DNA from: Pseudomonadota bacterium | GTDB lineage: Bacteria; Pseudomonadota; Gammaproteobacteria; Burkholderiales; Rhodocyclaceae | NCBI GenBank assembly: GCA_018240785.1 | Contig: JAFEFC010000049.1 | Location: forward strand, 1-36,039 | Length of the DNA stretch: 36,039 bases | Reading direction: 5' to 3' | Translations under genes and position numbers: made by a program | Notes under the pieces: generated by a model | Seen by the model: the letters and a program-made list of their open reading frames with translations, nothing else | Told to the model about the DNA's origin: nothing | The model's database searches: none | Shown: in pieces, positions 23,527-35,948 of the stretch | Numbering within the stretch: position 1 is the stretch's first letter | Layout of the letters: every line of letters starts with the position of its first letter

Positions 23527-24294
23527 TCAGGCGTCGAGTTCCAGCACGACCGGTGCGTGGTCGGAAGGGCGTTCCAGCTTGCGTGGCGCCTTGTCGATGG
23601 TGCAACTGCGGCAGGCCTCGCGCAGCGCCGGCGACACCAGGATGTGGTCGATGCGCAGGCCGAAATTGCGGCGGAAGGCCATCATGCGGTAGTCCCACCA
23701 CGAGAAGCTGCGCTCCGGCTGCTCGAACAGGCGGAAGGCGTCGGTGAGGCCGAGGTCGAGCAGCGCGCGGAAGGCGGCGCGCTCGGGCTCGGAGACGTGG
23801 ATTTCGTCCTTCCAGTCAGGGTGGGCGTCGCGGTCTTCCGGTGCGATGTTGAAATCGCCCACCAGCACCAGCTTCTCGTGCGCCTTCAGTTCCTCGCGCA
23901 GCCAGTCGGTCAGCGCGGCGAGCCAGCGCAACTTGTACTCGAATTTGTCCGATCCCACGGCCTGGCCGTTGGGAAAATAGCCGCACACCACGCGCACGCC
24001 GCCGATCGTGGCGGCGATCAGCCGCTTCTGCTCGTCCTCGAAGCCGGGGATGTTGCGCACCACGGTCGTTTCGTCGATCGGCGCCGGGCTCAGGATGGCG
24101 ACGCCGTTGTAGGTCTTCTGGCCGATGAAGGCGGCGTGGTAGCCGGCGGCTTGCAGTTCAGCGAGTGGGAAGGCCTTGTCCTCGAGCTTGAGTTCCTGCA
24201 GGCACAGCGCATCCGGCTTGTTGGCGGCGAGCCAGTCGAGCGCTTGCGGCAGGCGGACTTTGAGCGAGTTGACGTTCCAGGTGGCGATCTTCAT
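23527..24294 (-). CDS. xthA: Exodeoxyribonuclease III / AP endonuclease
   Basis: A 255-residue member of the exonuclease-endonuclease-phosphatase superfamily. [17 protein letters not shown] at the N-terminus, [10 protein letters not shown] with the metal-binding Glu, [13 protein letters not shown] in the middle and [22 protein letters not shown] at the end give the full catalytic set. It cleaves DNA at abasic sites and trims 3' ends in base-excision repair. The frame is open to 24372, but the family N-terminus fixes the start at 24294. A structured repeat lies upstream. Confidence 0.95.
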
Positions 24295-24425
24295 GGGCGA
24301 TCCGGTCGTGGCGCACAGCGTTGTTGCCGGCCTTGCGAAAGGGCGCGCATTGTAACGCGCGCCTTGCTCCATTCAGCGCGGCGGCTAAAGAGGCGTCCAT
24401 GAAATTGCAGCTATCCCCCACCCCC

Positions 24426-24530
24426 GGTCAGGCGGCGGGGGAGACGCTTCACGTCCTGCGCAACTCGACCTCGCTGCGCTCGGGACTCGAACAGTGCTCG
24501 TCCGCTCCGCGTCTCCCCCGCCGCCTGACC
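24426..24530. repeat. Structured dispersed repeat, copy 1
   Basis: Two 22-bp arms (24426-24447 and 24509-24530) are perfect inverted complements and enclose 61 bp. The inner part, from CCTGCGCAACTCGACC (about 24455) to CCGCTCCGCG, is almost identical to the copy at 34794-34899. The left arm begins GGTCAGGCGGCGG. It lies 28 bp past the stop of the DUF4124-glutaredoxin gene, upstream of xthA, in the 263-bp gap between them. No T-tract follows on either strand. I do not recognise a named family. Confidence 0.85.
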
Positions 24531-24557
24531 TGCCATGTTGCGGGCTCTCACGAACCG

Positions 24558-25052
24558 TCACTTCGAAAGCGCCTTGGGGTAGCCGGCGTCGTCCAGCATG
24601 CGGGTCCAGCGTCCGGCTTCGTAGCCCTTCTGCACCTGATTGCCGACGCTGATGGCGGGCACTTCCTCGGGCGTGCCGAAGCGTTCGCGGTAGGCGGCGA
24701 TGTCGGCCTCGGTGGCGAGCTTGTGCTCGGCGAAGGGCACGCCGCGCCGGGTCAGCAGGCTGCGCGCCTCGTCGCACAGGCCGCCGCAGTTGTCGCTGGT
24801 GTAGAAGGTCACCGGGAAATCGGTGGCCGCCTTGCGTGTCGTGTAGGGCAGCGCGGTGTCGGCTGGCGCGTCGCTGAGCTGCTTCTCGATCACCTTGCGC
24901 ACGTTCTGCGGCGGCGGCCGGTCCGAGTAGTTTACCCGTCCGCTTTCATCGATCCAGCGATAGGTTTCGGCGCCCCAGGCCGGGGCGCCGAGGCTGCCCA
25001 GCACGACGGCTACGCTAACCGCCATGCGCCAGGGAACGCCCGCTCCGATCAT
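24558..25052 (-). CDS. DUF4124 + glutaredoxin-like periplasmic protein
   Basis: A 164-residue protein with an N-terminal signal-like segment (MAVSVAVVLGSLGAPAWGAE, 10-29), a DUF4124 module (YRWIDESGRVNYSDRPPP, 31-48) and a C-terminal glutaredoxin-like domain (VTFYTSDNCGGLCDEARSLLTRRGVPF.., with EVPAISVGNQVQKGY as the cis-Pro region). The active site is CxxxC (C89 and C93) rather than CxxC. The ATG at 25052 overlaps the prlC stop as ATGA, which supports that start and translational coupling; an ATG at 25025 directly before the hydrophobic core is the alternative. It probably acts in periplasmic thiol exchange, but the substrate is unknown. Confidence 0.85.
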   Translation of the reverse strand: MIGAGVPWRMAVSVAVVLGSLGAPAWGAETYRWIDESGRVNYSDRPPPQNVRKVIEKQLSDAPADTALPYTTRKAATDFPVTFYTSDNCGGLCDEARSLLTRRGVPFAEHKLATEADIAAYRERFGTPEEVPAISVGNQVQKGYEAGRWTRMLDDAGYPKALSK

Positions 25053-27151
25053 GCATCCACCATCCCGTTGTGACGCAGCAGCGCGTCGACGCGCGGCTCA
25101 CGGCCGCGGAAGGCCTTGAAGGACTCGATCGCCGGACGGCTGCCGCCGACGGCGAGGATCTCGCGCCAGAAGCGGGCGCCCGTCTCGGGGTCGAGCAAGC
25201 TCCCCTTGCCGGCGCCGGCTTCCTCGAAGGCTTCGAAGGCGTCGGCCGACAGCACCTCCGCCCACTTGTAACTGTAGTAGCCCGCTGCATAGCCGCCCGC
25301 AAAAATGTGCGAGAAACTGTGCGGAAATCGATGCCAGGGCGGAGGTACCAGCACCGCCACTTCGCGCCGCACTTCGTCGAGCAGGGCCATCACTCGCTCG
25401 ACCGGCACCGGGCCCGAGGTCTTGTCCGCGCCGGCGTCGAGCTCGGCGTGCAGGCGCAGGTCGAACATCGAGAATTCGAGCTGGCGCACCGTCTGCATGC
25501 CGCTCTGGAAGTTCTTCGCGGCGATCATCTTGTCGTACAGCGCGCGCGGCAGCGGCTCGCCGGTGTCGACGTGGGCGGTCATGCCCTGCAGCACGTCCCA
25601 CTCCCAGCAGAAGTTCTCCATGAACTGGCTGGGCAGTTCGACCGCGTCCCACTCCACGCCGTGGATGCCCGACACCGCGAGGTCCTCGACCTTGGTCAGC
25701 AGGTGGTGCAGGCCGTGGCCGCATTCGTGGAACAGCGTCAGCACGTCGTCGTGGGTGAAGGTGGCGGGTTTGCCTCCGACCGCGCTCGGGAAGTTGCACA
25801 CGAGATAGGCGACCGGCGTCTCGGTGCCGTGCGCGCTGCGGTGGCGGCTGCGCGCCGAATCCATCCAAGCGCCGCCGCGCTTGGTCGGGCGCGCGTGCAG
25901 GTCGAGGTAGAAGTGGCCGACGAGGTCGCCGCTCTTCTCGATGCGGAAGAAGCGGGTGTCCGGGTCCCAGGTGGGCGCTTCATCGGGCAGGATGTCGACG
26001 CCGTACAGCGCGCGGATCACGCCGAACAGCCCGTCGAGCACCTTGGGCTCGGGGAAGTACTGTTTCACTTCCTGGTCGGAGTAGTCGTAGCGCGACTGAC
26101 GCAACTTCTCCGAGGCGTAGGCGACGTCCCAGGGTTCCAGCGGATCGAGCCCGAGTTCGGCCTTGGCGAAGGCCTTCAGTTCGGCGAGGTCGCGTTCGGC
26201 GAAGGGTTTGGCCTTGGCCGCAAGCTCGCGCAGGAAGGCAAGCACCTGGGCTGGCGTGTCGGCCATCTTGGGCACCAGCGACACTTCGGCGAAGTTGGCG
26301 TAGCCCAGCATGCGGGACTCTTCCGCACGCAGCGCCAGGATGCGGCCGATCAGCGGGCCGTTGTCCCAATCCGCCTTGCCCTGCTCGGAGGCGCGCGTGG
26401 CATAGGCGCGGTACATGCGTTCGCGCAGCGCGCGGTTGTCGGCGTACTGCAGCACCGGCAGGTAGGACGGCATGTGCAGCGTGAAGCGCCAGCCCGGCTT
26501 GCCTTCGGCTTCGGCCGACGCGCGGGCCATCGCCAGCGCATCTTCCGGGATGCCGGCAAGCTCGGATTCGTCGGTGATCAGCTCCTCGTGCGCGTTGGTC
26601 GCGTCGAGCAGGTTCTCGGAGAACTTCGCGGCGAGCTGCGACTGCTCCTCCTGGATTTCCTTGAAGCGCGGCTTGAGTTCGTCCGGCAGCTCGGCGCCGG
26701 ACAGGCGGAAATCGCGCACCTCGTGGTCGAGGATCAGCTGCCGGGTGGGCGTCAGCGTGGCGTATTCGGCGCCGTCGTGCAGCGCCTTGTACTTGTGGAA
26801 CAGCGCCAGGTTCTGCCCGACTTCGGCGAAGAAGCCCGACACCTCGGGCAGCAGCGCGTTGTAGGCCTCGCGCCATTCGGGCACGTCCTTCACGCTGTGC
26901 AGGTGGCCGACCACGCCCCAGGCGCGGCCGAGGCGCTCGCCGGCCTCGTTCATCGGTTCGACGAAACCTTCCCAGGTGGGGACGGAGAGATCGGCGGTGA
27001 GGCGTTCGATCAGCGCCCGGTTCTCGTCCAGCAACTGGCGGATCGCCGGGGCGACATGCTCGGGGCGGATATCGGCAAAGCGGGGAAAGCCGGAGAAATC
27101 CAGCAGCGGGTTGGAAGCGTTGTCTGCGGGGGAGGACGTCGGGGTCGTCAT
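25049..27151 (-). CDS. prlC: Oligopeptidase A, M3 family
   Basis: A 700-residue zinc metallopeptidase of the thimet oligopeptidase family, cytoplasmic, which degrades signal peptides and other short peptides. HECGH at 475-479 gives two zinc ligands and the catalytic Glu; the third ligand is in the GVEWDAVELPSQFMENF segment. The C-terminal FSHIFAGGYAAGYYSYKWAEVLSADAFEAF is the conserved substrate-binding loop of this family. The frame is open to 27208; I chose the ATG at 27151, before TTPTSSPADN. Its stop overlaps the DUF4124-glutaredoxin start. Confidence 0.96.
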   Translation of the reverse strand: MTTPTSSPADNASNPLLDFSGFPRFADIRPEHVAPAIRQLLDENRALIERLTADLSVPTWEGFVEPMNEAGERLGRAWGVVGHLHSVKDVPEWREAYNALLPEVSGFFAEVGQNLALFHKYKALHDGAEYATLTPTRQLILDHEVRDFRLSGAELPDELKPRFKEIQEEQSQLAAKFSENLLDATNAHEELITDESELAGIPEDALAMARASAEAEGKPGWRFTLHMPSYLPVLQYADNRALRERMYRAYATRASEQGKADWDNGPLIGRILALRAEESRMLGYANFAEVSLVPKMADTPAQVLAFLRELAAKAKPFAERDLAELKAFAKAELGLDPLEPWDVAYASEKLRQSRYDYSDQEVKQYFPEPKVLDGLFGVIRALYGVDILPDEAPTWDPDTRFFRIEKSGDLVGHFYLDLHARPTKRGGAWMDSARSRHRSAHGTETPVAYLVCNFPSAVGGKPATFTHDDVLTLFHECGHGLHHLLTKVEDLAVSGIHGVEWDAVELPSQFMENFCWEWDVLQGMTAHVDTGEPLPRALYDKMIAAKNFQSGMQTVRQLEFSMFDLRLHAELDAGADKTSGPVPVERVMALLDEVRREVAVLVPPPWHRFPHSFSHIFAGGYAAGYYSYKWAEVLSADAFEAFEEAGAGKGSLLDPETGARFWREILAVGGSRPAIESFKAFRGREPRVDALLRHNGMVDA

Positions 27152-27204
27152 GTTCACTGTGTATCCGTTGGGGATTTCGTTGCGTTGTCTGGAACTATTC
27201 TGCC

Positions 27205-27241
27205 GCAAAAAATACGCCGGGCGCCGCTATGGGCGCCCGGC
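27205..27241 (-). terminator. Rho-independent terminator after the DUF2189 gene
   Basis: A ten-base stem, GCCGGGCGCC (27216-27225) with GGCGCCCGGC (27232-27241), closes a six-base loop; on the minus strand it is followed by GTATTTTTTGC. It lies about 43 nt past the DUF2189 stop and upstream of prlC, so prlC is likely to need its own promoter. Confidence 0.85.
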
Positions 27242-27283
27242 TGTCGCGACGGTCGCGGCGATGAGGGCCGCGACCGATCCCGG

Positions 27284-28057
27284 TCAGTCGACCAGGTCGC
27301 GATACGCGTGCCAGGTGGCGTGGCCGAGCAGCGGCAGCAGCACCACCATGCCGATCATCATCGTGGCGAAGCCGACCGCGACCAGCGCGACGATCAGCGC
27401 CGCCCACAGCGCCATCGCGCCGAGATTCACGCCGACCGCCTTGGCGCTGGTCATCGCCGCGCTGATGGCATCGATGTCGCGGTCCATGATCATCGGGATG
27501 GCGATCGCCGACAGCGCGAATACAACCGCTGCGAGCGCTCCGCCGACGACGAGGTAGGCGACGACGAAGTGGGTGTAGTCGCCCGACAGGAAGACGTCAC
27601 GCGCGAAATTGGACAGCTCCGGTACAGCGCCCTGATAGAACAGCGCAAACAGGATGGCGGACAAGCGCTCCCAGGCGATCAGCGTGATGGCGAGGAACAG
27701 GCCGAAGTACATCAGGCTGTCGCCGTGTCGGGTCAGCCCGCGCAGCGACGTGCCGAAGGACGCCGGCTCGCCCCTATCGTGGCGGCGCGAGATTTCGTAC
27801 AGCCCGGCTGCGGCGATCGGGCCGACGAGGAAGAAGCCCGAGATGGCGGCGGTGAACAGGTAGAGCTTGCCGCTTGCGTAGGTCAGGATCGAATAGCCGA
27901 CCGCGGCAAAGAAGATGCCGTACGTCAGACTGGCGCCGAGGTTGTCACGCATGTCGCCCCATCCCAGTCTCAGCCAGTGGAAGGGGCGCGAAGCGCCGGC
28001 TTCGCGAATGTGCGGCAGGTGGAAGTGCTGGTGCAGCGAATGCATCGATTTGTCCAT
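27284..28057 (-). CDS. DUF2189 family integral membrane protein
   Basis: A 257-residue protein with about six membrane segments after a 35-residue soluble head (HIREAGASRPFHWLRLGWGDMRDN). The pattern ASLTYGIFFAAVGYSILTYA...FFLVGPIAAAGLYEISRRHDRGEPASF and LGHATWHAYRDLVD at the end matches DUF2189. Other proteobacterial members are often near cytochrome oxidase or energy genes, but none is here. GGAGG lies five bases before the ATG at 28057, and a strong terminator follows, so it is monocistronic. The function is unknown. Confidence 0.9.
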   Translation of the reverse strand: MDKSMHSLHQHFHLPHIREAGASRPFHWLRLGWGDMRDNLGASLTYGIFFAAVGYSILTYASGKLYLFTAAISGFFLVGPIAAAGLYEISRRHDRGEPASFGTSLRGLTRHGDSLMYFGLFLAITLIAWERLSAILFALFYQGAVPELSNFARDVFLSGDYTHFVVAYLVVGGALAAVVFALSAIAIPMIMDRDIDAISAAMTSAKAVGVNLGAMALWAALIVALVAVGFATMMIGMVVLLPLLGHATWHAYRDLVD

Positions 28058-28215
28058 GACAACCTCCGTGCGGTGAGGAACGTCCAGGTGGATCCTAGAC
28101 CGCTAGCGTCGGGCGCGTCCTCGACGGATCGCGGTCAGTAGCTTGGATCAGGACAATTTCGTATGAGTTCATCAATGAGATTGATTGGCGTTCGCTATCG
28201 CGTTCCCGTTGCGCG

Positions 28216-29484
28216 TCAATCCTGGTTGGCAGCCCTCCAGATGTTGCGACATCCGGTTTCGCGCAGGAACAGCGTGGAAACGGTGCCGATCAGTCCGGCG
28301 GCGGCAAGCAGGCCCATGCCGTAGCGGAAGGTCTCCACCGGATACATCCGCACGCCGTCGACGATGGTGCCTTCCCAGCCGAAATCCATGATCGCGCCCA
28401 CCGCCGGTTGCAGCAGGGCGCCGGCAAGGAAGCCGCCCATGTTGGTCACGCTGGTGCTCATGCCGGACAACTGTGGTGGATTCACTTCCTTGGCGCAGGC
28501 CCAGGTCAGCGAGAAGCTCGCGGTGACGAGGCCCATCAGCGCGAACAGCGCGTAGCTGACCGGGACGGGCATGCGCACGGCGGACAGCCACACCAGCCAC
28601 AGCACGCACAGGGCGACGCTGCCCGCGATCAGCACCGGTTTGCGCTTGCCGATGCGGTCGGACAGGCTGCCCACGGCCAGGCAGCCGACGGCGAGGCAGG
28701 CAAAGTACAGCGACAGGTGGTTGGCGGCCTGCACGCGGCTGAGCTGGTGCACCTGCATCAGGTAAGGTGTGGCCCACAGGCCGCCGAAGGCAAAGAAGCT
28801 GCCGGCGAGGCCGAAATTGACCCACACTGCGGGCCAGGTGGCGCGATTGCGCAGCACACCGGCGAGCCCGCCGATGATCACGGTGCGGTCGATGCGCGGG
28901 CGCGGCGCGTCGGCCGCATGGCGCTCGCGGATGAAGGCCCAGCACGCCACTCCGAGCAGCACCGACAGCACCGCGGCGCCAAGGAACACCCCGCGCCAGG
29001 ACGTGGCCTGCGCCACCGCCACCAGGGGCGTGCCGGCGAGGATGGAGCCGAGGTTGCCGATCAGCATCGCGAGCCCGACCAGGGTGGCGAAGCGGCGCTC
29101 GTCGAACCACACGGCGATCAGCTTGAGCATGGCGATGAACACCACCGACACGCCGAGGCCGACCAGCGTGCGGCCGACCAGCGCGACCTCCAGGCTGGGG
29201 GCGAGGCCGAACAGCGCGCTGCCGGCGCCGGCGACCAGCCCGCCAAGCAGCAGGATGCGGCGCGGGCCGAGGGTGTCGACCAGGATGCCCGTCGGCACCT
29301 GCATGATCGTGTAGACGTAGAAGTAGGTGGCCGCGAGCGCGCCGAGCGACGCGGCGCTGGTCTGGAACGCGGCGGCGAGATCCTGCGCGATGCCCGCGGG
29401 GGCGAAGCGGTGGAAGAACGACAGCATGTAGGCGGCGACGACGACAGCCATCGCCATCGTGCGGCCGGAAGCAGGCGCTTGCAT
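28216..29484 (-). CDS. MFS transporter (12 TMS)
   Basis: A 422-residue transporter. Helix 1 is followed by FFHRFAPAGIAQDLAAAF; the 2-3 loop reads MQVPTGILVDTLGPRRILL, the 4-5 region RTLVGLGVSVVFIAMLKLIAVWFDERRFATLVGLA, and GSLSDRIGKRKPVLIAG is the second-half copy of the loop motif. This pattern resembles sugar-acid or nitrate-type MFS groups, but the substrate cannot be assigned. It follows purC by 64 nt, in which a GGAGCC/GGCTCC hairpin (29505-29524) may end or slow purC transcription. Confidence 0.88.
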   Translation of the reverse strand: MQAPASGRTMAMAVVVAAYMLSFFHRFAPAGIAQDLAAAFQTSAASLGALAATYFYVYTIMQVPTGILVDTLGPRRILLLGGLVAGAGSALFGLAPSLEVALVGRTLVGLGVSVVFIAMLKLIAVWFDERRFATLVGLAMLIGNLGSILAGTPLVAVAQATSWRGVFLGAAVLSVLLGVACWAFIRERHAADAPRPRIDRTVIIGGLAGVLRNRATWPAVWVNFGLAGSFFAFGGLWATPYLMQVHQLSRVQAANHLSLYFACLAVGCLAVGSLSDRIGKRKPVLIAGSVALCVLWLVWLSAVRMPVPVSYALFALMGLVTASFSLTWACAKEVNPPQLSGMSTSVTNMGGFLAGALLQPAVGAIMDFGWEGTIVDGVRMYPVETFRYGMGLLAAAGLIGTVSTLFLRETGCRNIWRAANQD

Positions 29485-29548
29485 GGAGATCCCCTCGGGG
29501 GCGGGGAGCCTCTTCTCGGGCTCCTCCGCTGGGTGCTGCCGGCGTCGG

Positions 29549-30484
29549 TTACGCCAGCTGGTGGCCGGTCAGGCGCTCGTAGGCTTCGCGGTACTTGCCC
29601 GCGGTGTGCTCGATCACGTCGGCCGGCAGCTTGGGGCCGGGGGCCGTCTTGCCCCAATCCAGCGTCTCGAGATAGTCGCGCACGTACTGCTTGTCGAAGG
29701 AGGGCGGGCTGATGCCTTCGCGGTAGCTGTCCGCGGGCCAGAAGCGCGACGAATCCGGCGTGAGCGCCTCGTCGATCAGGTGCAGCGTGCCCTGGGCGTC
29801 GATGCCGAACTCGAACTTGGTGTCGGCGATGATGATGCCGCGGCTGGCAGCGTAGTCGGCTGCTTCCGAATACAGCGCGATCGCCGACTTGCGCGCTTCT
29901 TCGGCAAGCTGGGCGCCGGTCTTGCCGGTGCCGGCGAGCGCGTCCTTCAGCAGCGCATCGCAGCGCGCCTGCGCCTGCTCGAAGGAGATGTTCTCGTCGT
30001 GCTCGCCCATTTCCGCCTTGGATGACGGCGTGAAGATCGGCGCCGGCAGCTTGGCCGCCTGCTTGAGGTCGGCGGGCAGGGCGATACCGCAGATCGCGCC
30101 GGTAGCCTGGTAGTCCTTCCAGCCCGAACCGATCACGTAGCCACGCACCACCGCCTCGATCGGCAGTGGCTTGAGGCGCTTGACCACCAGCGCACGCCCG
30201 CGCACCTGGTCGCGCTCGTCGGCGGCGACCACGGTCTCCGGGTCGATGCCGGTGAGCTGGTTGGGCAGGATGTGGGCGAGCCTGTCGAACCAGAAGTTCG
30301 CCAGCGCCACCAGCACGCGGCCCTTGTCCGGAATCGGATCGGGCAGCACAACGTCGAAGGCCGACAGGCGGTCGCTGGTGACGATCAGCAGACGGTCGGC
30401 ATCGACCGCGTAGATGTCGCGCACCTTGCCGCGGCCGAGCAGCGGCAGGCTCTTGATGGAGGATTCGAACAGGGGAGTCGCCAC
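29549..30484 (-). CDS. purC: SAICAR synthase (phosphoribosylaminoimidazole-succinocarboxamide synthase)
   Basis: A 311-residue enzyme that joins CAIR and aspartate in purine synthesis. [46 protein letters not shown] and [15 protein letters not shown] are all family motifs in order; the length is that of the long form (about 300 residues). I place the start at GTG 30484, which yields [17 protein letters not shown]; the frame upstream to 30736 is unlike the family. A perfect TATAAT lies 31 nt upstream. Confidence 0.96.
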
Positions 30485-30514
30485 GGCGGGGCCTCGGTTG
30501 CTGGCAAAGCAGCG

Positions 30515-30542
30515 ATTATAGGGGAGGGGCGCGCTCTTTCGA
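30515..30542 (-). promoter_or_regulatory. Candidate purC promoter
   Basis: On the minus strand a perfect TATAAT (30515-30520) is preceded after 16 nt by TCGAAA (30537-30542), a four-of-six -35 match. Initiation near 30508 leaves a leader of about 24 nt. The -35 overlaps a small CGCTC-TTTC-GAGCG dyad (30532-30545). Confidence 0.5.
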
Positions 30543-30543
30543 G

Positions 30544-30807
30544 CGTGAGAGGGGCGTGAGAGGGGCTTGAGAATACCGAGCGCCTTCGCCCTGCGCGAAC
30601 CCCTCGGCGATACCGCTTCTCCCGCCCTGGCCCGCAACAACCAGGCGGCCGGCGACGCTCCCTTCCGGAGGTGTCGCAGGACATGACGATTGACGAACGC
30701 GCGTACCAGGGGAACGCATTGCCGTTCGGCCCGCAAGCTGCAATCCTTGCACCCGATCCATTGTGATCGGTTCTTGTCAGCCTGTTCCTGGCCAGAGGAG
30801 TGAAGCC
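30544..30807. other. Divergent gap between purC and the amidohydrolase
   Basis: The gap between the two genes totals 323 bp. CGTGAGAGGGG occurs twice in tandem (30544-30554 and 30555-30565), with a partial third unit. CCGATC-CATTGT-GATCGG (30753-30770) is an inverted repeat 38 bp before the amidohydrolase ATG. The rest, 30570-30750, encodes nothing I recognise. Confidence 0.5.
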
Positions 30808-31815
30808 ATGCATCACCACGCCCATTCGTCCATCGACATCCATGCGCACTACTATCCGGAATCCTATATCCGTCTGATTGAAAAACATGGATCGGAGTTC
30901 GGTGCCATGGTGGATACCTCGAACCCGTCCAGGCCCGTCATCAAGTCGCCGCCCACCGTTTCAGCCCTGGAAGACCGCTTCATTCACATGGAGGCCCGGA
31001 TTGAGGACATGGACAGGATCGGCGTGGATGTGCATGCAATTTCCATGACCATGCCGATGATTCTCTGGGCTGGTGCAAAGCTGCAACAACAACTGGTTGA
31101 AGCTCACAATGACTCGGCGTTCGAGGCTTATCAGAAATACCCGGATCGGCTTTGCGTACTCGCAACCCTGCCTTTCGACAACATCGATCTGGCGATCGCG
31201 GAACTCGATCGCATTGCGAAAATGCCCGGCCTGAAGGGGATTTATTCCGAAACCCGGATCTCCAGGAACAAGGAGATCGATGACGAGTCCCTGTATCCAC
31301 TGTGGGAGCGCCTCGAAACAATGGGGTTGCCCCTGTTCCTGCATCCAGTGCATGTGGTCGAGCCGGCGCGGCTGGGCAAATACTTCATGGTCAACACCAT
31401 CGGCAATCCGGTGGACACGGGTATCGCTGCCTCGCGACTGATCTTCAGCGGCATCCTTGACCGCTTTCCGAAGCTGGAGGTGGTCCTGCCGCACGCCGGC
31501 GGCGTCTATCCGATTCTGTTCGGTCGCATGACTCGCGCCTGGGAACGGAGCAAAGGTGGTCTCGACGCCAGCAAGGGCCGGGGCGCGGATGCTTATCTGA
31601 AACGTTTCTACTACGACAATATTTCCCACTCCAATGAAGTCATGGAGTATCTGGTGAAACTGGTCGGTGCCGACCGGATCATGCTGGGCAGCGATTATTG
31701 TTTCGACATGGGCTATGAGCGCCCCTGCGACAAGGTCGAAGGCTATGACTTTCTCAACGATTCGGACAAGAAGCTGATCCTGGGCGAAACAGCCAGGAAG
31801 CTGTTGAAACTCTGA
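30808..31815 (+). CDS. Amidohydrolase 2 family, ACMSD-like decarboxylase/hydrolase
   Basis: A 335-residue metal-dependent enzyme of the ACMSD branch of the amidohydrolase superfamily. HAH at 12-14 and H179 in FLHPVH are the first metal ligands, followed by H229 in LPHAGG and D296 in LGSDYCFD. Known relatives decarboxylate aromatic acids (aminocarboxymuconate semialdehyde, resorcylate) or hydrolyse ring compounds; the substrate here is not known. The start at 30808 has AGAGGAG seven bases upstream; the frame is also open from 30763. By hand count, 31081-31140 has 28 G/C of 60 and 31141-31200 has 36, below its neighbours, and no catabolic genes adjoin, so it may be a recent acquisition. Confidence 0.88.
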
Positions 31816-31854
31816 GTGGGTTCACGTCTCTGCCGATCGAAATTGCGACCGCCG

Positions 31855-31887
31855 GCTCCGCCCCCTGCCGCCCATGCGAGGCGGAGC
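31855..31887. terminator. Hairpin between convergent genes (weak terminator candidate)
   Basis: GCTCCGCC (31855-31862) pairs with GGCGGAGC (31880-31887) over a 17-base loop, just before the end of the DUF3422 gene and about 40 nt past the amidohydrolase stop. There is no T-tract, so a role in termination is uncertain. Confidence 0.35.
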
Positions 31888-31892
31888 GGGAC

Positions 31893-33188
31893 TCACTGAT
31901 GCGCGTCGCCTTCTTCCTTGCCCAGCAATTTCCGCATCCGCCGCAGCCCCATGTACACGAAGCCGGCGATCACCGGGATCGACACCGCGGTGAGCAGCTC
32001 CGGCGACACCGGCTCGATCAGATGCTTGGCGCCCTTGGACATGTAATTGACCAGTTGCGACGCGTAATACGTGATCGCCACCACTGACAGGCCTTCCACC
32101 GTTTCCTGCAGGTGGAGCTGGATCTTGGCGCGGCGGTTCATCTGCGCCAGCAGCTCCTGGTTCTGGCGTTCGAGTTCGATGTCCACCCGCGTACGCAGCA
32201 GTTGCGAATTGCGCGCGATCCGCGCCGACAGGTCGTCCTGGCGGCGGGCGATGGAGGCGCAGGTGTCGATCGCCGGCACCAGGCGCCGATCCATGAACTC
32301 GCCGATGGGCGAGAAGCCGGGCAGGCGCTGCTCGCGCAGGTCGTCGATGCGCTGTTGCACGAGCCGGTAGTAGGCTGCCGCCGCACCGAAGCGAAAGGTG
32401 GTGCGCGCCACCGAACGTTCCACCTCGGCGGCGAGCCGCGACAGGCGGGCGAGCACTGCGCGGTCGTCCTCGGCGCTGCGCGCCTGGCCCATGCCGTCCA
32501 TCAGGTCGGCCAGCTCGTCCTCCGCGCGCGACAGCAGGCGGCCCACCTGCTTGGCGACCGGGAAGGCGAGCAGCGCCATGACGCGGTAGGTCTCGATTTC
32601 CACCAGGCGCTGGGCGATGCGGCCGGCCTGGCGCGGCGTGAGGTCGTCGTCCAGCACCAGGAAGTGCGAGAAGCCCTCATGCAGGTGGAAGTCGGTCAGC
32701 ACCCAGCCGGCGCCGTCGGCCACCTTTGAGGCCACCATGGCCTGGCCGCGGGGCGACTGCTGTTGCAGCACCGTCTCGGGCCGCACTTCGTCGGTGCCGC
32801 GCACCTCGATGTGGGTGGCGGCGATCAGTTGTCCCGGAATGGCCTTGCGCCAGGCGGCCGGCACGTGCAGCAGCGCGTATTCGTCGGCCGTGTCGGTGGG
32901 ATCGATGCGGCGGAAGAAGCAGTAGCTGGAGAATTCGTTGTGCCGCTCCCACTTCAGCCGGAAGCCGGCCGACTGCAGCAGCAGGTGGCCCGACGCCAAG
33001 TCCGGCTCGGGCAGGTCGAGCTGCGCGGCCAGCGCCCTCAGGTGATCCGCTTCGCGCTCGGCGCTGCCTTCGTGGTGCAGGAAGGCGAGATAGGTGACGA
33101 ACTCGGGGGTGTCGAGCGCGACCGGCGGACGGGCATGGACTTCGTCGCTGAGCGTCTGGCGCAGCGGGTGCTGTTCGAAGAAGGGCAT
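31893..33188 (-). CDS. DUF3422 family membrane-anchored protein
   Basis: A 431-residue protein. The conserved N-terminus (HPLRQTLSDEVHARPPVAL) and FSSYCFFRR belong to DUF3422. A long helical, coiled-coil-like part (about 250-370, rich in Arg, Gln and Leu) leads to two C-terminal membrane helices (TVEGLSVVAITYYASQLVNYM and LLTAVSIPVIAGFVYMGL). The topology resembles CorA-like proteins, but the ion-pore GMN motif is absent. It lies downstream of dctA on the same strand. No Shine-Dalgarno sequence precedes the ATG; a 22-bp palindrome sits 11 nt upstream instead. The function is unknown. Confidence 0.9.
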   Translation of the reverse strand: MPFFEQHPLRQTLSDEVHARPPVALDTPEFVTYLAFLHHEGSAEREADHLRALAAQLDLPEPDLASGHLLLQSAGFRLKWERHNEFSSYCFFRRIDPTDTADEYALLHVPAAWRKAIPGQLIAATHIEVRGTDEVRPETVLQQQSPRGQAMVASKVADGAGWVLTDFHLHEGFSHFLVLDDDLTPRQAGRIAQRLVEIETYRVMALLAFPVAKQVGRLLSRAEDELADLMDGMGQARSAEDDRAVLARLSRLAAEVERSVARTTFRFGAAAAYYRLVQQRIDDLREQRLPGFSPIGEFMDRRLVPAIDTCASIARRQDDLSARIARNSQLLRTRVDIELERQNQELLAQMNRRAKIQLHLQETVEGLSVVAITYYASQLVNYMSKGAKHLIEPVSPELLTAVSIPVIAGFVYMGLRRMRKLLGKEEGDAHQ

Positions 33189-33198
33189 TGAATGCGCG

Positions 33199-33220
33199 GC
33201 GGGCGCCCCGGGGCGCCCGC
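33199..33220. repeat. Perfect 22-bp GC palindrome before the DUF3422 gene
   Basis: The dyad is centred at 33209/33210 (CCCC|GGGG) and every base from 33199 to 33220 pairs with its mirror. It lies in the 129-bp gap after dctA. As RNA it could form a very stable hairpin that ends dctA transcription or hinders DUF3422 translation. There is no T-tract on either side. Confidence 0.6.
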
Positions 33221-33317
33221 GTCGAATGAGGAAGCCGCATTCTTGCCCAGGCTCGATGTGGGGACAAGCGCGGCGGTGCGAAGGGGAAGCCCGTGCCGGC
33301 CTCCCCTGCCGCGGGGC

Positions 33318-34661
33318 TCAGGCCTTCTGGCCGGCCATCGAGGTCACGTGCAGGTGGGATTCGACCGCGTCCAGCACCACCTCGGGCTCGTCGGCCTCGA
33401 GTTCGGTCTCGTTGTTCAGGTGGCTGCGCAGGCGCTCCTCGTCGAGATCCTTGCACCACTTGGCCACCACCACCGTCGCCACCGAGTTGCCGATCAGGTT
33501 GGTCAGCGCGCGGGCTTCCGACATGAAGCGGTCGATGCCCAGGATCAGCGCCAGGCCGGCCACCGGTACGCCACCCACCGCCGACAGCGTGGCCGCCAGC
33601 ACGATGAAGCCGCTGCCGGTGATGCCCGCGGCGCCCTTGGAGGTGAGCAGCAGCACCAGCAGCAGGGTGATCTGCTGGGTGATGTCCATCGGCGTGTTGG
33701 TGGCCTGGGCGATGAACACCGCCGCCATCGTCAGGTAGATGGAAGTGCCGTCCAGGTTGAAGGAGTAGCCGGTGGGGATGACCAGGCCGACGGTCGACTT
33801 CTTGCAGCCGAGGTTCTCGAGCTTGGCCATGATGCGCGGCAGGGCCGATTCCGACGACGAGGTGCCGAGCACGATCAGCAGCTCTTCCTTGATGTAGCGG
33901 ATGAGCTTCACCACCGAGAAGCCGTGCAGCCGCGCGATGGTGCCGAGCACGCCGAAGATGAAGATCAGGCAGGTGGCGTAGAAGGTGGCCATCAGCATGC
34001 CGAGCTGGGCCAGCGTGCCGACGCCGTGCTTGCCGATGGTGAAGGCCATGGCGCCGAAGGCACCGATCGGGGCGACCTTCATGATGTAGCCGACGATGGC
34101 GAACAGCACGTGCGAGAACTTCTCGATCATGTCGAACACCAGCGTGCCGCGGCCGCCGAAGCGATGCAGCGCGAAGCCGAACAGCACCGAGAACAGCAGC
34201 ACCTGCAGGATCTCGCCCTTGGCGAAGGCATCCACCACGGTGGTCGGGATCACGGCTAGCAGGAACTCGGTGGTCGTCTGCATCTTGCCCGGTGCGGTGT
34301 AGGCGGCGATGGCCTTCGTGTCGAGCGTGGCCGGATCGACGTTCATGCCGGCGCCCGGCTGCACCACGTTGACGATGATGAGGCCGACGATCAGCGCGAT
34401 CGAGCTGACGATCTCGAAATACAGCAGGGCGAGGCCGCCGGTCTTGCCGACCTTCTTCATGTCTTCCATGCCGGCGATGCCGACGACCACCGTGCAGAAG
34501 ATGATCGGGGCGATGATCATCTTGATGAGCTTGATGAAGCCGTCGCCCAGCGGCTTCATCGCGGCGCCGGTCTCGGGGTAGAAGTGGCCCAGCAACACGC
34601 CCAGGATGATCGCGACGATCACCTGGAAGTACAGCGAACGGAACAGCGATTTCCGGATCAT
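33318..34661 (-). CDS. dctA: C4-dicarboxylate:cation symporter DctA
   Basis: A 447-residue symporter of the DAACS family for succinate, fumarate and malate. [20 protein letters not shown] is the first re-entrant-loop motif, [25 protein letters not shown] the helix 7 motif, [20 protein letters not shown] the second hairpin and [26 protein letters not shown] the helix 8 motif. All are typical of DctA. The ATG at 34661 has AAGGAGG eight bases upstream. No dctBD pair adjoins and I found no clear sigma-54 promoter, but two inverted repeats lie in the leader. Confidence 0.96.
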
Positions 34662-34684
34662 GGTTGTCTCCTCCTTGGAAGGTG

Positions 34685-34740
34685 GGCGGATTGTGTCCGC
34701 CACCGCCCAAAGGGGAAATTGTGTTCATCCACATTGTGGA
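34685..34740 (-). promoter_or_regulatory. dctA leader with two inverted repeats
   Basis: GGCGGA-TTGTG-TCCGCC (34685-34701) lies about 24 bp before the dctA ATG. TCCACA-T-TGTGGA (34728-34740) lies about 66 bp before it. The first may fold in the mRNA leader; the second looks like a protein-binding dyad. The identity of any regulator is unknown. Confidence 0.4.
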
Positions 34741-34793
34741 AACTACGCATGTCGGGTTCTTGCACCGGATCGCGCGACCAGTGCCGCAAACCC

Positions 34794-34899
34794 GGTCTGG
34801 CGGTGGGGGATACGCTCCGTCGGCCTGCGCAACTCGACCTCGCTGCGCTCGGGACTCGGACAGTGCTTGTCCGCTCCGCGCATCCCCCGTCGCCAGACC
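34794..34899. repeat. Structured dispersed repeat, copy 2
   Basis: The arms are 34794-34815 and 34878-34899, enclosing 62 bp. Nineteen of 22 arm positions form Watson-Crick pairs, two form G-T pairs and one is mismatched (plus-strand reading). The left arm begins GGTCTGGCGGTGG. The inner block matches copy 1 at nearly every base from CCTGCGCAACTCGACC on. The right arm touches the aldolase stop codon (34899-34901), and the left arm faces dctA, so it occupies the same place relative to the upstream minus-strand gene as copy 1. Confidence 0.85.
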
Positions 34900-35948
34900 T
34901 ACCGTGGCGCCACCCCGTAGCGTTTTGCCAGCACCTCCAGCGGCAGCGGCCTGATGCGGCTGGCCTGCCCGGCGCAGCCGAAGGCCTCGAAGCGTTCGCG
35001 GCAGATGTCGCGCGCCGCGTCGCGGGCGGCCTTGAAGAACTTGCGGGGGTCGAACTCCTTGCGGTCGGTCATCATCAGCCGGCGCATCGCGCCGGTCATC
35101 GCCAGGCGCAGGTCGGTGTCGATGTTGACCTTGCGCACGCCGCTCCTGATGCCCTGCACGATGGCCTCGACCGGCACGCCATAGGTCTCGCCGATCTCGC
35201 CACCGTGCTCGCGGATGATCGCAAGCCATTCCTGCGGCACGCTGCTGGAGCCGTGCATCACCAGGTGGGTGTCGGGGATGCGGGCATGGATGGCGGCGAT
35301 GCGGTCGATGGCGAGGATGTCGCCGGTGGGCGGGCGGGTGAACTTGTAGGCGCCGTGGCTGGTGCCGATCGCCACCGCCAGCGCATCGACGCCGGTGGCG
35401 GCGACGAAATCGGCGGCCTCCGCCGGATCGGTCAGCATCTGGCTGTGGGCGAGCGTGCCTTCCGCGCCGACGCCGTCCTCCTCGCCGGCCTGGCCGGTCT
35501 CGAGCGAGCCCAGGCAGCCGAGTTCGCCTTCCACCGACACGCCCACCGCATGCGCCATTTCCACCACGCGGCGGGTGACCTCGACGTTGTACGCGTAGCT
35601 CGCCGGTGTCTTCATGTCGTCGCGCAGCGAGCCGTCCATCATCACGCTGGTGAAACCGCTGCGGATCGACTGCTGGCACACCGCCGGGCTGGCGCCGTGG
35701 TCCTGGTGCAGGCAGATGGGGATGTCCGGCCACTGCTCGACGGCGGCCTCCACCATCTTCTTCAGGAAGGCTTCGCCGGCGTAACTGCGCGCGCCGGCCG
35801 AGGCCTGCAGGATCACCGGGCTGCCGGTGGCCTCGGCGGCGAGCATGATGGCGTGGATCTGCTCCATGTTGTTGATGTTGAAGGCGGGCACGCCGTAGCC
35901 GTGTTCGGCGGCGTGGTCGAGCAGTTGACGCAGGGCAATCATGGACAT
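34899..35948 (-). CDS. fba: Fructose-bisphosphate aldolase class II, Calvin-cycle subtype
   Basis: A 349-residue zinc aldolase of central carbon metabolism that splits or forms fructose 1,6-bisphosphate. LHQDHGAS carries the first zinc ligand and catalytic Asp, [15 protein letters not shown] the Glu ligand, GTSHGAYKF and [12 protein letters not shown] the later His ligands and phosphate loop, and [10 protein letters not shown] the final loop. The sequence fits the longer CbbA-like subtype (TIGR01521). GGAG lies six bases before the ATG at 35948; an ATG at 35942 is a weaker option. No other glycolytic gene adjoins within the window. Confidence 0.95.

Follow-up and report, generated by a model that had tools for sequence, protein, structure and literature searches.

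Two long inverted repeats, at 24426..24530 (copy 1) and 34794..34899 (copy 2), were analysed in a stretch of 36,039 nucleotides, here called the window (contig JAFEFC010000049.1, from a Thauera-like genome of the Rhodocyclaceae). Both are probably decayed copies of a miniature inverted-repeat transposable element (MITE) of Thauera, the arms of which would be kept complementary mainly by template switching during replication. Its ends and 10-bp target duplications, which correspond to those of insertion sequences (ISs) of the ISAs1 family, and an empty site make a non-autonomous ISAs1-type mini-transposon, situated mostly downstream of genes, the best reading of the repeat. Complete copies, found in the relative G001, have ISAs1-type terminal inverted repeats enclosing a further palindrome, which is made up of 22-bp arms and a conserved core. 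The element was most likely moved in trans by an ISAs1-family transposase, making 10-bp target duplications, with insertion mostly just downstream of genes. Template switching during DNA replication would then copy a mutation from one arm into the other, giving a double change in a single step, and a switch between the two strands would invert the spacer or the whole element. Any RNA role, for example as a 3'-end hairpin altering mRNA stability, would be secondary at most.

The complete element, its target duplications and an empty site

An alignment of 30 copies from genome G001, a relative of the window's genome, revealed conservation that continued past the arms, followed by an outer inverted repeat. 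The palindromes of the window correspond to the inner part only of this larger element, which carries outer terminal inverted repeats where it is complete. The complete G001 copies were mostly about 183 bp long with the ends CAGGGCRATCGCAYGA, too short for a transposase gene. Both ends were present in 10 copies, eight of 171-186 bp and two of 281-283 bp with an internal tandem unit; L220 (281 bp) was an eleventh complete copy. The terminal repeats of the G001 copies were AGGGCRATCGCAYGA, with up to two mismatches allowed. The TA termini of ERIC/Correia-type repeats were not present, the element ending instead in CAGGGC...GCCCTG.

With CAGGGC...GCCCTG as the limits of the element, the 10-mers on either side of each of the 11 complete G001 copies were compared. 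They matched at a mean of 5.64 of 10 positions, compared with 3.76 when re-paired, and 42 of 100,000 shuffles scored as high. Two sites were queried for an unoccupied counterpart. The L170 site, filled in G001, was found with its flanks joined without the element in G003 and G301; the joined flanks of L159 gave no spanning match.

In five G001 loci (L156, L165, L220, L167 and L173), one arm side together with the core was tandemly repeated inside or before some elements, and the cores of the extra units had decayed.

ISAs1-family insertion sequences with the same ends

From four genomes, 30 loci with a DDE_Tnp_1 transposase were fetched, and one of them, in G007, was bounded on both sides by the element's outermost bases. 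The transposase of this locus matched the NCBIfam ISAs1 model NF033564 (E 9e-90), and relatives of it were found in 16 of 29 genomes of the genus (E≤1e-15). The Thauera ISAs1-family ISs were 1,264-1,267 bp long, most with the ends CAGGGCAATCGCACC, and the terminal repeats of the copies were AGGGCAATCGCACC. The outermost 12-13 bases, CAGGGCRATCGCA, are common to the IS and the mini-transposon. Exact 10-bp direct repeats flanked 10 of the 13 IS copies with both ends that were examined, these 13 coming from a second set of 30 loci fetched afterwards; as in the mini-transposon, a C before AGGGC and a G after GCCCT stood between the ends and the duplications. The 10-bp length of the ISAs1 duplication was thereby measured here on Thauera copies. 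Terminal repeats, target duplications, the empty site and the matching ISAs1-family ISs together support a non-autonomous mobile repeat, which was one of three possibilities raised in a first-pass annotation of the window. Based on these sequences, we infer that an ISAs1 transposase acts on the MITE in trans.

Several observations weigh against this assignment. The target duplications are degenerate, at 10, 9, 8, 7, 7, 7, 5, 4, 3, 2 and 0 matches of 10. The agreement between mini-transposon and IS is confined to the ends. Neither G000 nor G001 held a relative of the G007 transposase at E≤1e-15, so that the mobiliser is deduced from other Thauera. Finally, terminal repeats can no longer be recognised at most ends of the window copies, with a weak remnant at one end, and the membership of these copies in the family therefore rests on the shared inner 100+ bp.

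The G007 copy itself (L242:1384-2647) is read in two overlapping frames of 197 and 308 codons, compared with one frame of about 397 codons in its relatives, and may therefore be broken.

Copy number, spread and types

The repeat had been described in the first-pass annotation as a two-copy structure. This is not so: at E≤0.001, the core was matched 27 times in the window's genome, at least 40 times in G001, 29 times in G007 and 24 times in G003. Another six genomes of the genus had 1 to 3 core matches each. The core was absent from 3 of 12 relatives of the genus and from all 8 genomes of other families of the order; overall, it was present in 10 of 21 genomes. Among the matches listed were Thauera species, Uliginosibacterium, Niveibacterium, a Gallionella bin and less precisely named bins. 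A 26-base pattern from the core, searched for without mismatches, occurred in 1 of 274 genomes drawn from the class, namely the window's own, the pattern being too strict and the sample too sparse to map the spread. Two types were recognised in Thauera: type A has the arms of the window copies, and type B has a related core, but its arms vary between sites.

A plasmid or phage source was rejected, as no match was found in the two collections searched for one. No earlier description of the repeat was found in the published literature searched, a search with ISfinder and most subscription papers outside its scope.

In the Gallionella bin (L117), the arms on either side of a type A core were entirely different (AAACAAGCGG / CCGCTTGTTT), and the nearest called gene was over 1 kb away. 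Two Uliginosibacterium loci (L062:2000-2640 and L128:3480-4200) held the core twice, in opposite orientations about 200-350 bp apart; these pairs form part of larger, composite palindromes, in which the arms are different ones and the flanks are repeated.

The two copies in the window

The palindromes, their 22-bp arms, the near-identical core and every arm change listed in the first-pass annotation were reproduced pair by pair, copy 1 being 105 bp and copy 2 106 bp long. The features are as follows.

24426..24530, plus strand: inner palindrome of copy 1, 22-bp arms and a 61-bp spacer with the core; core-plus orientation, opposite to the direction of the flanking genes
24426..24447: left arm of copy 1, GGTCAGGCGGCGGGGGAGACGC
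24509..24530: right arm of copy 1, GCGTCTCCCCCGCCGCCTGACC
24456..24500, plus strand: conserved core of copy 1, CTGCGCAACTCGACCTCGCTGCGCTCGGGACTCGAACAGTGCTCG
24531..24557: right-end remnant of the element at copy 1, TGCCATGTTGCGGGCTC..., extending as far as the upstream gene's stop codon, with no terminal repeat that could be recognised
34794..34899, plus strand: inner palindrome of copy 2, 22-bp arms and core, oriented as copy 1
34825..34869, plus strand: conserved core of copy 2
34763..34793: decayed left end at copy 2, CACCGGATCGCGCGACCAGTGCCGCAAACCC resembling CAGGGCRATCGCAYGAGTGCCCCGAATCC; a weak likeness, from global alignment and by eye, with no control
34899..34917, minus strand: final codons of the aldolase gene and its TAG stop, aligning with the right end of the element, TACCGTGGCGCCACCCCG against TGCCGCGTCGCGCCATCCCG
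24558..25052, minus strand: gene upstream of copy 1, with DUF4124 and glutaredoxin-like domains, ending 27 bp before copy 1
23527..24372, minus strand: gene downstream of copy 1, endonuclease/exonuclease/phosphatase family
34899..35948, minus strand: gene ending in copy 2, class II fructose-bisphosphate aldolase
33318..34703, minus strand: gene downstream of copy 2, sodium:dicarboxylate symporter family

The arms of copy 2 are GGTCTGGCGGTGGGGGATACGC and GCGCATCCCCCGTCGCCAGACC. At arm position 5, the pair is A-T in copy 1 and T-A in copy 2, and at position 18 it is G-C and T-A, respectively. On the plus strand, copy 2 has G.T at position 10, T.G at position 11 and A.C at position 19. The first-pass annotation read these as two retained G-T pairs and one mismatch, which is correct for the plus strand; however, the genes flanking both copies are on the minus strand, and in their transcript the roles reverse, the two G.T becoming A.C mismatches and the A.C becoming G.U. 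Both copies folded better than all 200 shuffles on either strand, with z-scores of -8.2 (plus) and -9.2 (minus) for copy 1 and of -4.4 (plus) and -6.4 (minus) for copy 2.

At the copy 1 site in G007, CCGCCTGACC is left, joined at a CCCGC that was found by eye at both ends of the deletion; the site looks like a deletion scar. The orthologues of copy 2 in G007 and G003 (L191 and L192) have a core with 34 additional bases, so that the palindrome measures 140 bp rather than 106 bp. By eye, L018 of the window's genome resembles this long-core variant. In 11 further loci with the same aldolase gene (≥90% identity), no element was found within 330 bases after the gene, and a core-like match lay more than 1 kb away in two of them (L199 and L200); since the next gene differs in several of the 11, these are not clean empty sites. 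At copy 2 in the window, the aldolase gene appears to have taken its 3' end, with the stop codon, from the right end of the element.

Position relative to genes

Gene positions were assigned by applying a codon-usage gene caller to the fetched stretches, which held 106 rows from G000, G001, G003 and G007. Three were left out, namely L029, a chance match inside a gene, and two at a stretch edge. Rows of orthologous sites are not independent in the counts that follow. The 103 classified rows comprised 80 between genes in the same direction, 17 between converging genes and 6 between diverging genes; without the four extra tandem units of two G001 elements, the 99 rows divided into 78, 15 and 6, respectively. 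At least one gene ended towards the element in 97 of the 103. Diverging gaps were avoided (6 of 103, compared with 41 of 149 control gaps; Fisher p 6e-6), also without the tandem units (6 of 99, p 1.2e-5). The control gaps were element-free, at least 100 bp long and taken from the same stretches and the window. The position on the 3' side of genes that was proposed from the window copies alone is thus borne out by the 97 of 103 rows and by the avoidance of diverging gaps, and the element was not found scattered inside genes with no preferred position.

This placement bears on the reading of the repeat as a structured RNA, either a processing or stability element of the 3' untranslated region or a small RNA. 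Here pairing would be selected, and compensation would take two steps, as unpaired intermediates would be harmful. In keeping with it, copies lie just after stop codons: the upstream stop is at a median distance of 44 bp from the palindrome (n 97), the downstream start at one of 132 bp (n 80). However, the element occurs in both orientations to the genes, with both neighbours core-minus in 49 rows and core-plus in 31, and so no one strand is always transcribed. A known Rfam RNA was rejected, as no match reached the gathering scores in the window; the weak matches at copy 1 were to microRNA models far below their cut-offs. An intrinsic terminator (a G+C-rich hairpin and a T run) at copy 1 was likewise rejected, with no site in 24300-24700, the copy 1 region to which that search was confined. 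The absence of a terminator pattern there and of a gathering-score Rfam match in the window also counts against the structured RNA.

Paired changes in the arms

The arms were compared in 73 type A rows of 21 pairs each, giving 1,533 cells, where a row is a distinct combination of the arms, 40 core bases and 8 preceding bases. Identical copies were counted once, and arms with more than seven changes and type B arms were left out, so diverged arms are under-counted; L159 and L051 were also left out, since an arm deletion puts both out of register. The consensus pair was present in 1,382 cells, a double Watson-Crick change in 76 and a mismatch in 75. The doubles comprised 44 transitions and 32 transversions, of 26 kinds, 14 of them transversions. 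When the right arms were re-dealt within each genome, the means were 18 doubles, 5 transversion doubles and 188 mismatches, and the maximum in 2,000 shuffles was 37 doubles. Pairing is therefore kept within each copy. In 25 orthologous type A pairs, there were 43 doubles, 20 of them transversions, and 53 differences that were single or mismatched.

The first-pass annotation had ascribed the paired arm changes to selection for folding, and had named as evidence to the contrary arm changes that break pairing as often as they keep it. In bare numbers this is what was observed (75 against 76), but re-dealt arms would give about 188 and 18. Pairing far above chance is what a structured RNA would show, and a C-G to G-C switch in the core between subtypes, seen by eye, also speaks for one. 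The 32 of 76 doubles that are transversions, however, have no wobble intermediate. Sorted by transcript strand, the 37 core-minus rows had 17 A.C and 11 G.T, and the 20 core-plus rows 12 A.C and 3 G.T; wobble on the transcribed strand was not favoured, with 20 cells for and 23 against. This sorting covers 57 of the 73 rows, the remaining 16 being in other settings or without a gene call. Transversion doubles without a G.U bridge and wobble that does not follow the transcript argue against transcript selection as the main cause. Together with the many tolerated mismatches and the in-place inversions described below, they point to a process at the DNA level, and selection for RNA folding did not hold up as the main explanation.

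One observation pulls the other way. On the core-plus strand, A.C mismatches outnumber G.T by 37 to 20 (binomial p 0.03), irrespective of which way the flanking genes run, an excess also predicted by selection on a core-minus RNA, in which A.C is read as G.U. In a cruder count, from an automatic stem alignment of both types, a similar lean was found in G000 (36:9), G003 (27:6) and G007 (23:7), but not in G001 (19:23). The rows are related by descent, and none of these counts is of independent events. With all of this considered, a structured RNA is regarded as a very unlikely explanation.

The double changes might also be only apparent, if ectopic gene conversion between copies spread whole arm-core-arm units. 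By eye, the core subtype at the same site differs between species in three comparisons (L019/L127 and L042/L051; L014/L040 and L075; copy 2 and L191/L192), as such spreading would produce. On the other hand, 15 of the 26 kinds of double change were confined to one row, leaving no donor in the set, which is itself incomplete, and the site of L027, L061, L063 and L065 holds at least three clearly different, mostly paired arm pairs at one position. Gene conversion is considered an unlikely source of the pattern.

Orientation at orthologous sites

Comparison of flanks, with both required to match, gave 46 pairs of copies in the same orientation and 22 in opposite orientations. After a check that both cores were in the same place, 13 of the 22 inverted pairs stayed, at seven sites, with 17 other sites in a single orientation; by hand tally, the element or its core is thus found in opposite orientations at 7 of 24 orthologous sites. 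The nine inverted pairs dropped, for a second core there or a long gap, were five with L037, L021/L085, L026/L060, L039/L047 and L176/L038. One Niveibacterium/Uliginosibacterium same-orientation pair was left out, and the G001 paralogues L153/L154 are not in the site tally. One clean case was provided by the type B copies L061 (G003) and L063 (G007), where the core is inverted between near-identical arms and the flanks are colinear.

At the remaining six of the seven sites, the asymmetric outer ends flip along with the core. This would also be expected if the opposite orientations arose by independent insertions at a preferred target downstream of genes, rather than by inversion in place. The clear preference of the element for the 3' sides of genes fits such re-insertion, as do the bases between stop codon and element, which by eye are often wholly different. 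However, L012/L050/L179 and L146, which share a site, have left junctions that by eye coincide to within about 2 bp (CCAATCC), and of the 11 checked sites common to the close relatives G000 and G007, 5 show opposite orientations. Insertion also cannot give the L061/L063 difference, which flips only inside the arms and keeps both arms and flanks. Re-insertion is judged rather unlikely overall, though it may account for the type A sites.

For the preferred reading, inversion in place by template switching, there is a described precedent: arm homogenisation and spacer inversion together are an outcome of polymerase template switching between inverted repeats, according to the accessible text of PMC8604942, in which published bacterial data had template switching favouring transversions. 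The part available of PMC8794818 proposes it as a source of compensatory changes in RNA stems. In the accessible portions of these papers, spacer inversions are short, with 2-5 changed bases in yeast and loops of up to 8 nt in RNA genes (PMC8604942, PMC8794818), compared with 61 bp or the whole element here. Recombination is consequently a fair alternative as the inverter, and ordinary recombination between arms or ends may have inverted the element. We also suggest, tentatively and at somewhat less than even confidence, that the palindrome persists because template switching repeatedly rewrites its arms and flips the element in place. The core, about 45 bp long, would then be retained in different genera (Thauera, Uliginosibacterium, Niveibacterium and the Gallionella bin) despite turnover of arms, ends and orientation, which would give strong RNA-like covariation without selection on RNA.

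Relation to known systems and significance

The element resembles MITEs of ISAs1-family ISs (NF033564) in the outermost 12-13 bases, the 10-bp duplication, presence or absence between relatives and the lack of room for a transposase gene. It differs from them in holding a second long palindrome and a conserved core not derived from the IS ends. With ERIC/IRU, Correia/NEMIS, RUP and YPAL, as presented in the accessible part of PMC2229807, it shares the nature of a short non-coding mobile repeat whose transcripts can form long hairpins. Most of these have TA termini and are A+T-rich, whereas the Thauera element has ISAs1-type ends, arms that turn over and a core that is kept; YPAL is similar to it in being without TA ends, in having internal inverted repeats and in not being A+T-rich.

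GTAG-1 repeats of the repetitive extragenic palindromic (REP) class are reported in Thauera sp. MZ1T in the text available of PMC3733652. The GTAG/CGTC REPs are likewise extragenic palindromic repeats in the same genus. In that text, however, REPs are 20-40 bp long and the Thauera GTAG-1 stems 5 bp, compared with an element of about 183 bp with 22-bp arms and terminal repeats here. Identity with the GTAG/CGTC REPs was rejected on these differences in size, stem length and terminal repeats.

With the template-switch mutations described in the accessible parts of PMC8604942 and PMC8794818, the element has in common arm homogenisation, multi-base compensatory change and inversion of the spacer or loop. 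The cases in those parts concern yeast coding DNA and RNA genes with short spacers, and the present one a bacterial repeat family with a 61-bp spacer. The record of this element is unusually clear and fits evolution by template switching.

Covariation is widely taken as proof of a functional RNA structure, and the paired changes observed here can mimic a structured RNA. With dozens of natural copies whose double changes seemingly come from a DNA replication process, the family offers a test bed for how often covariation misleads. Thauera, in turn, gains an apparent ISAs1-type MITE on the 3' sides of its genes, in one case apparently supplying the stop codon.

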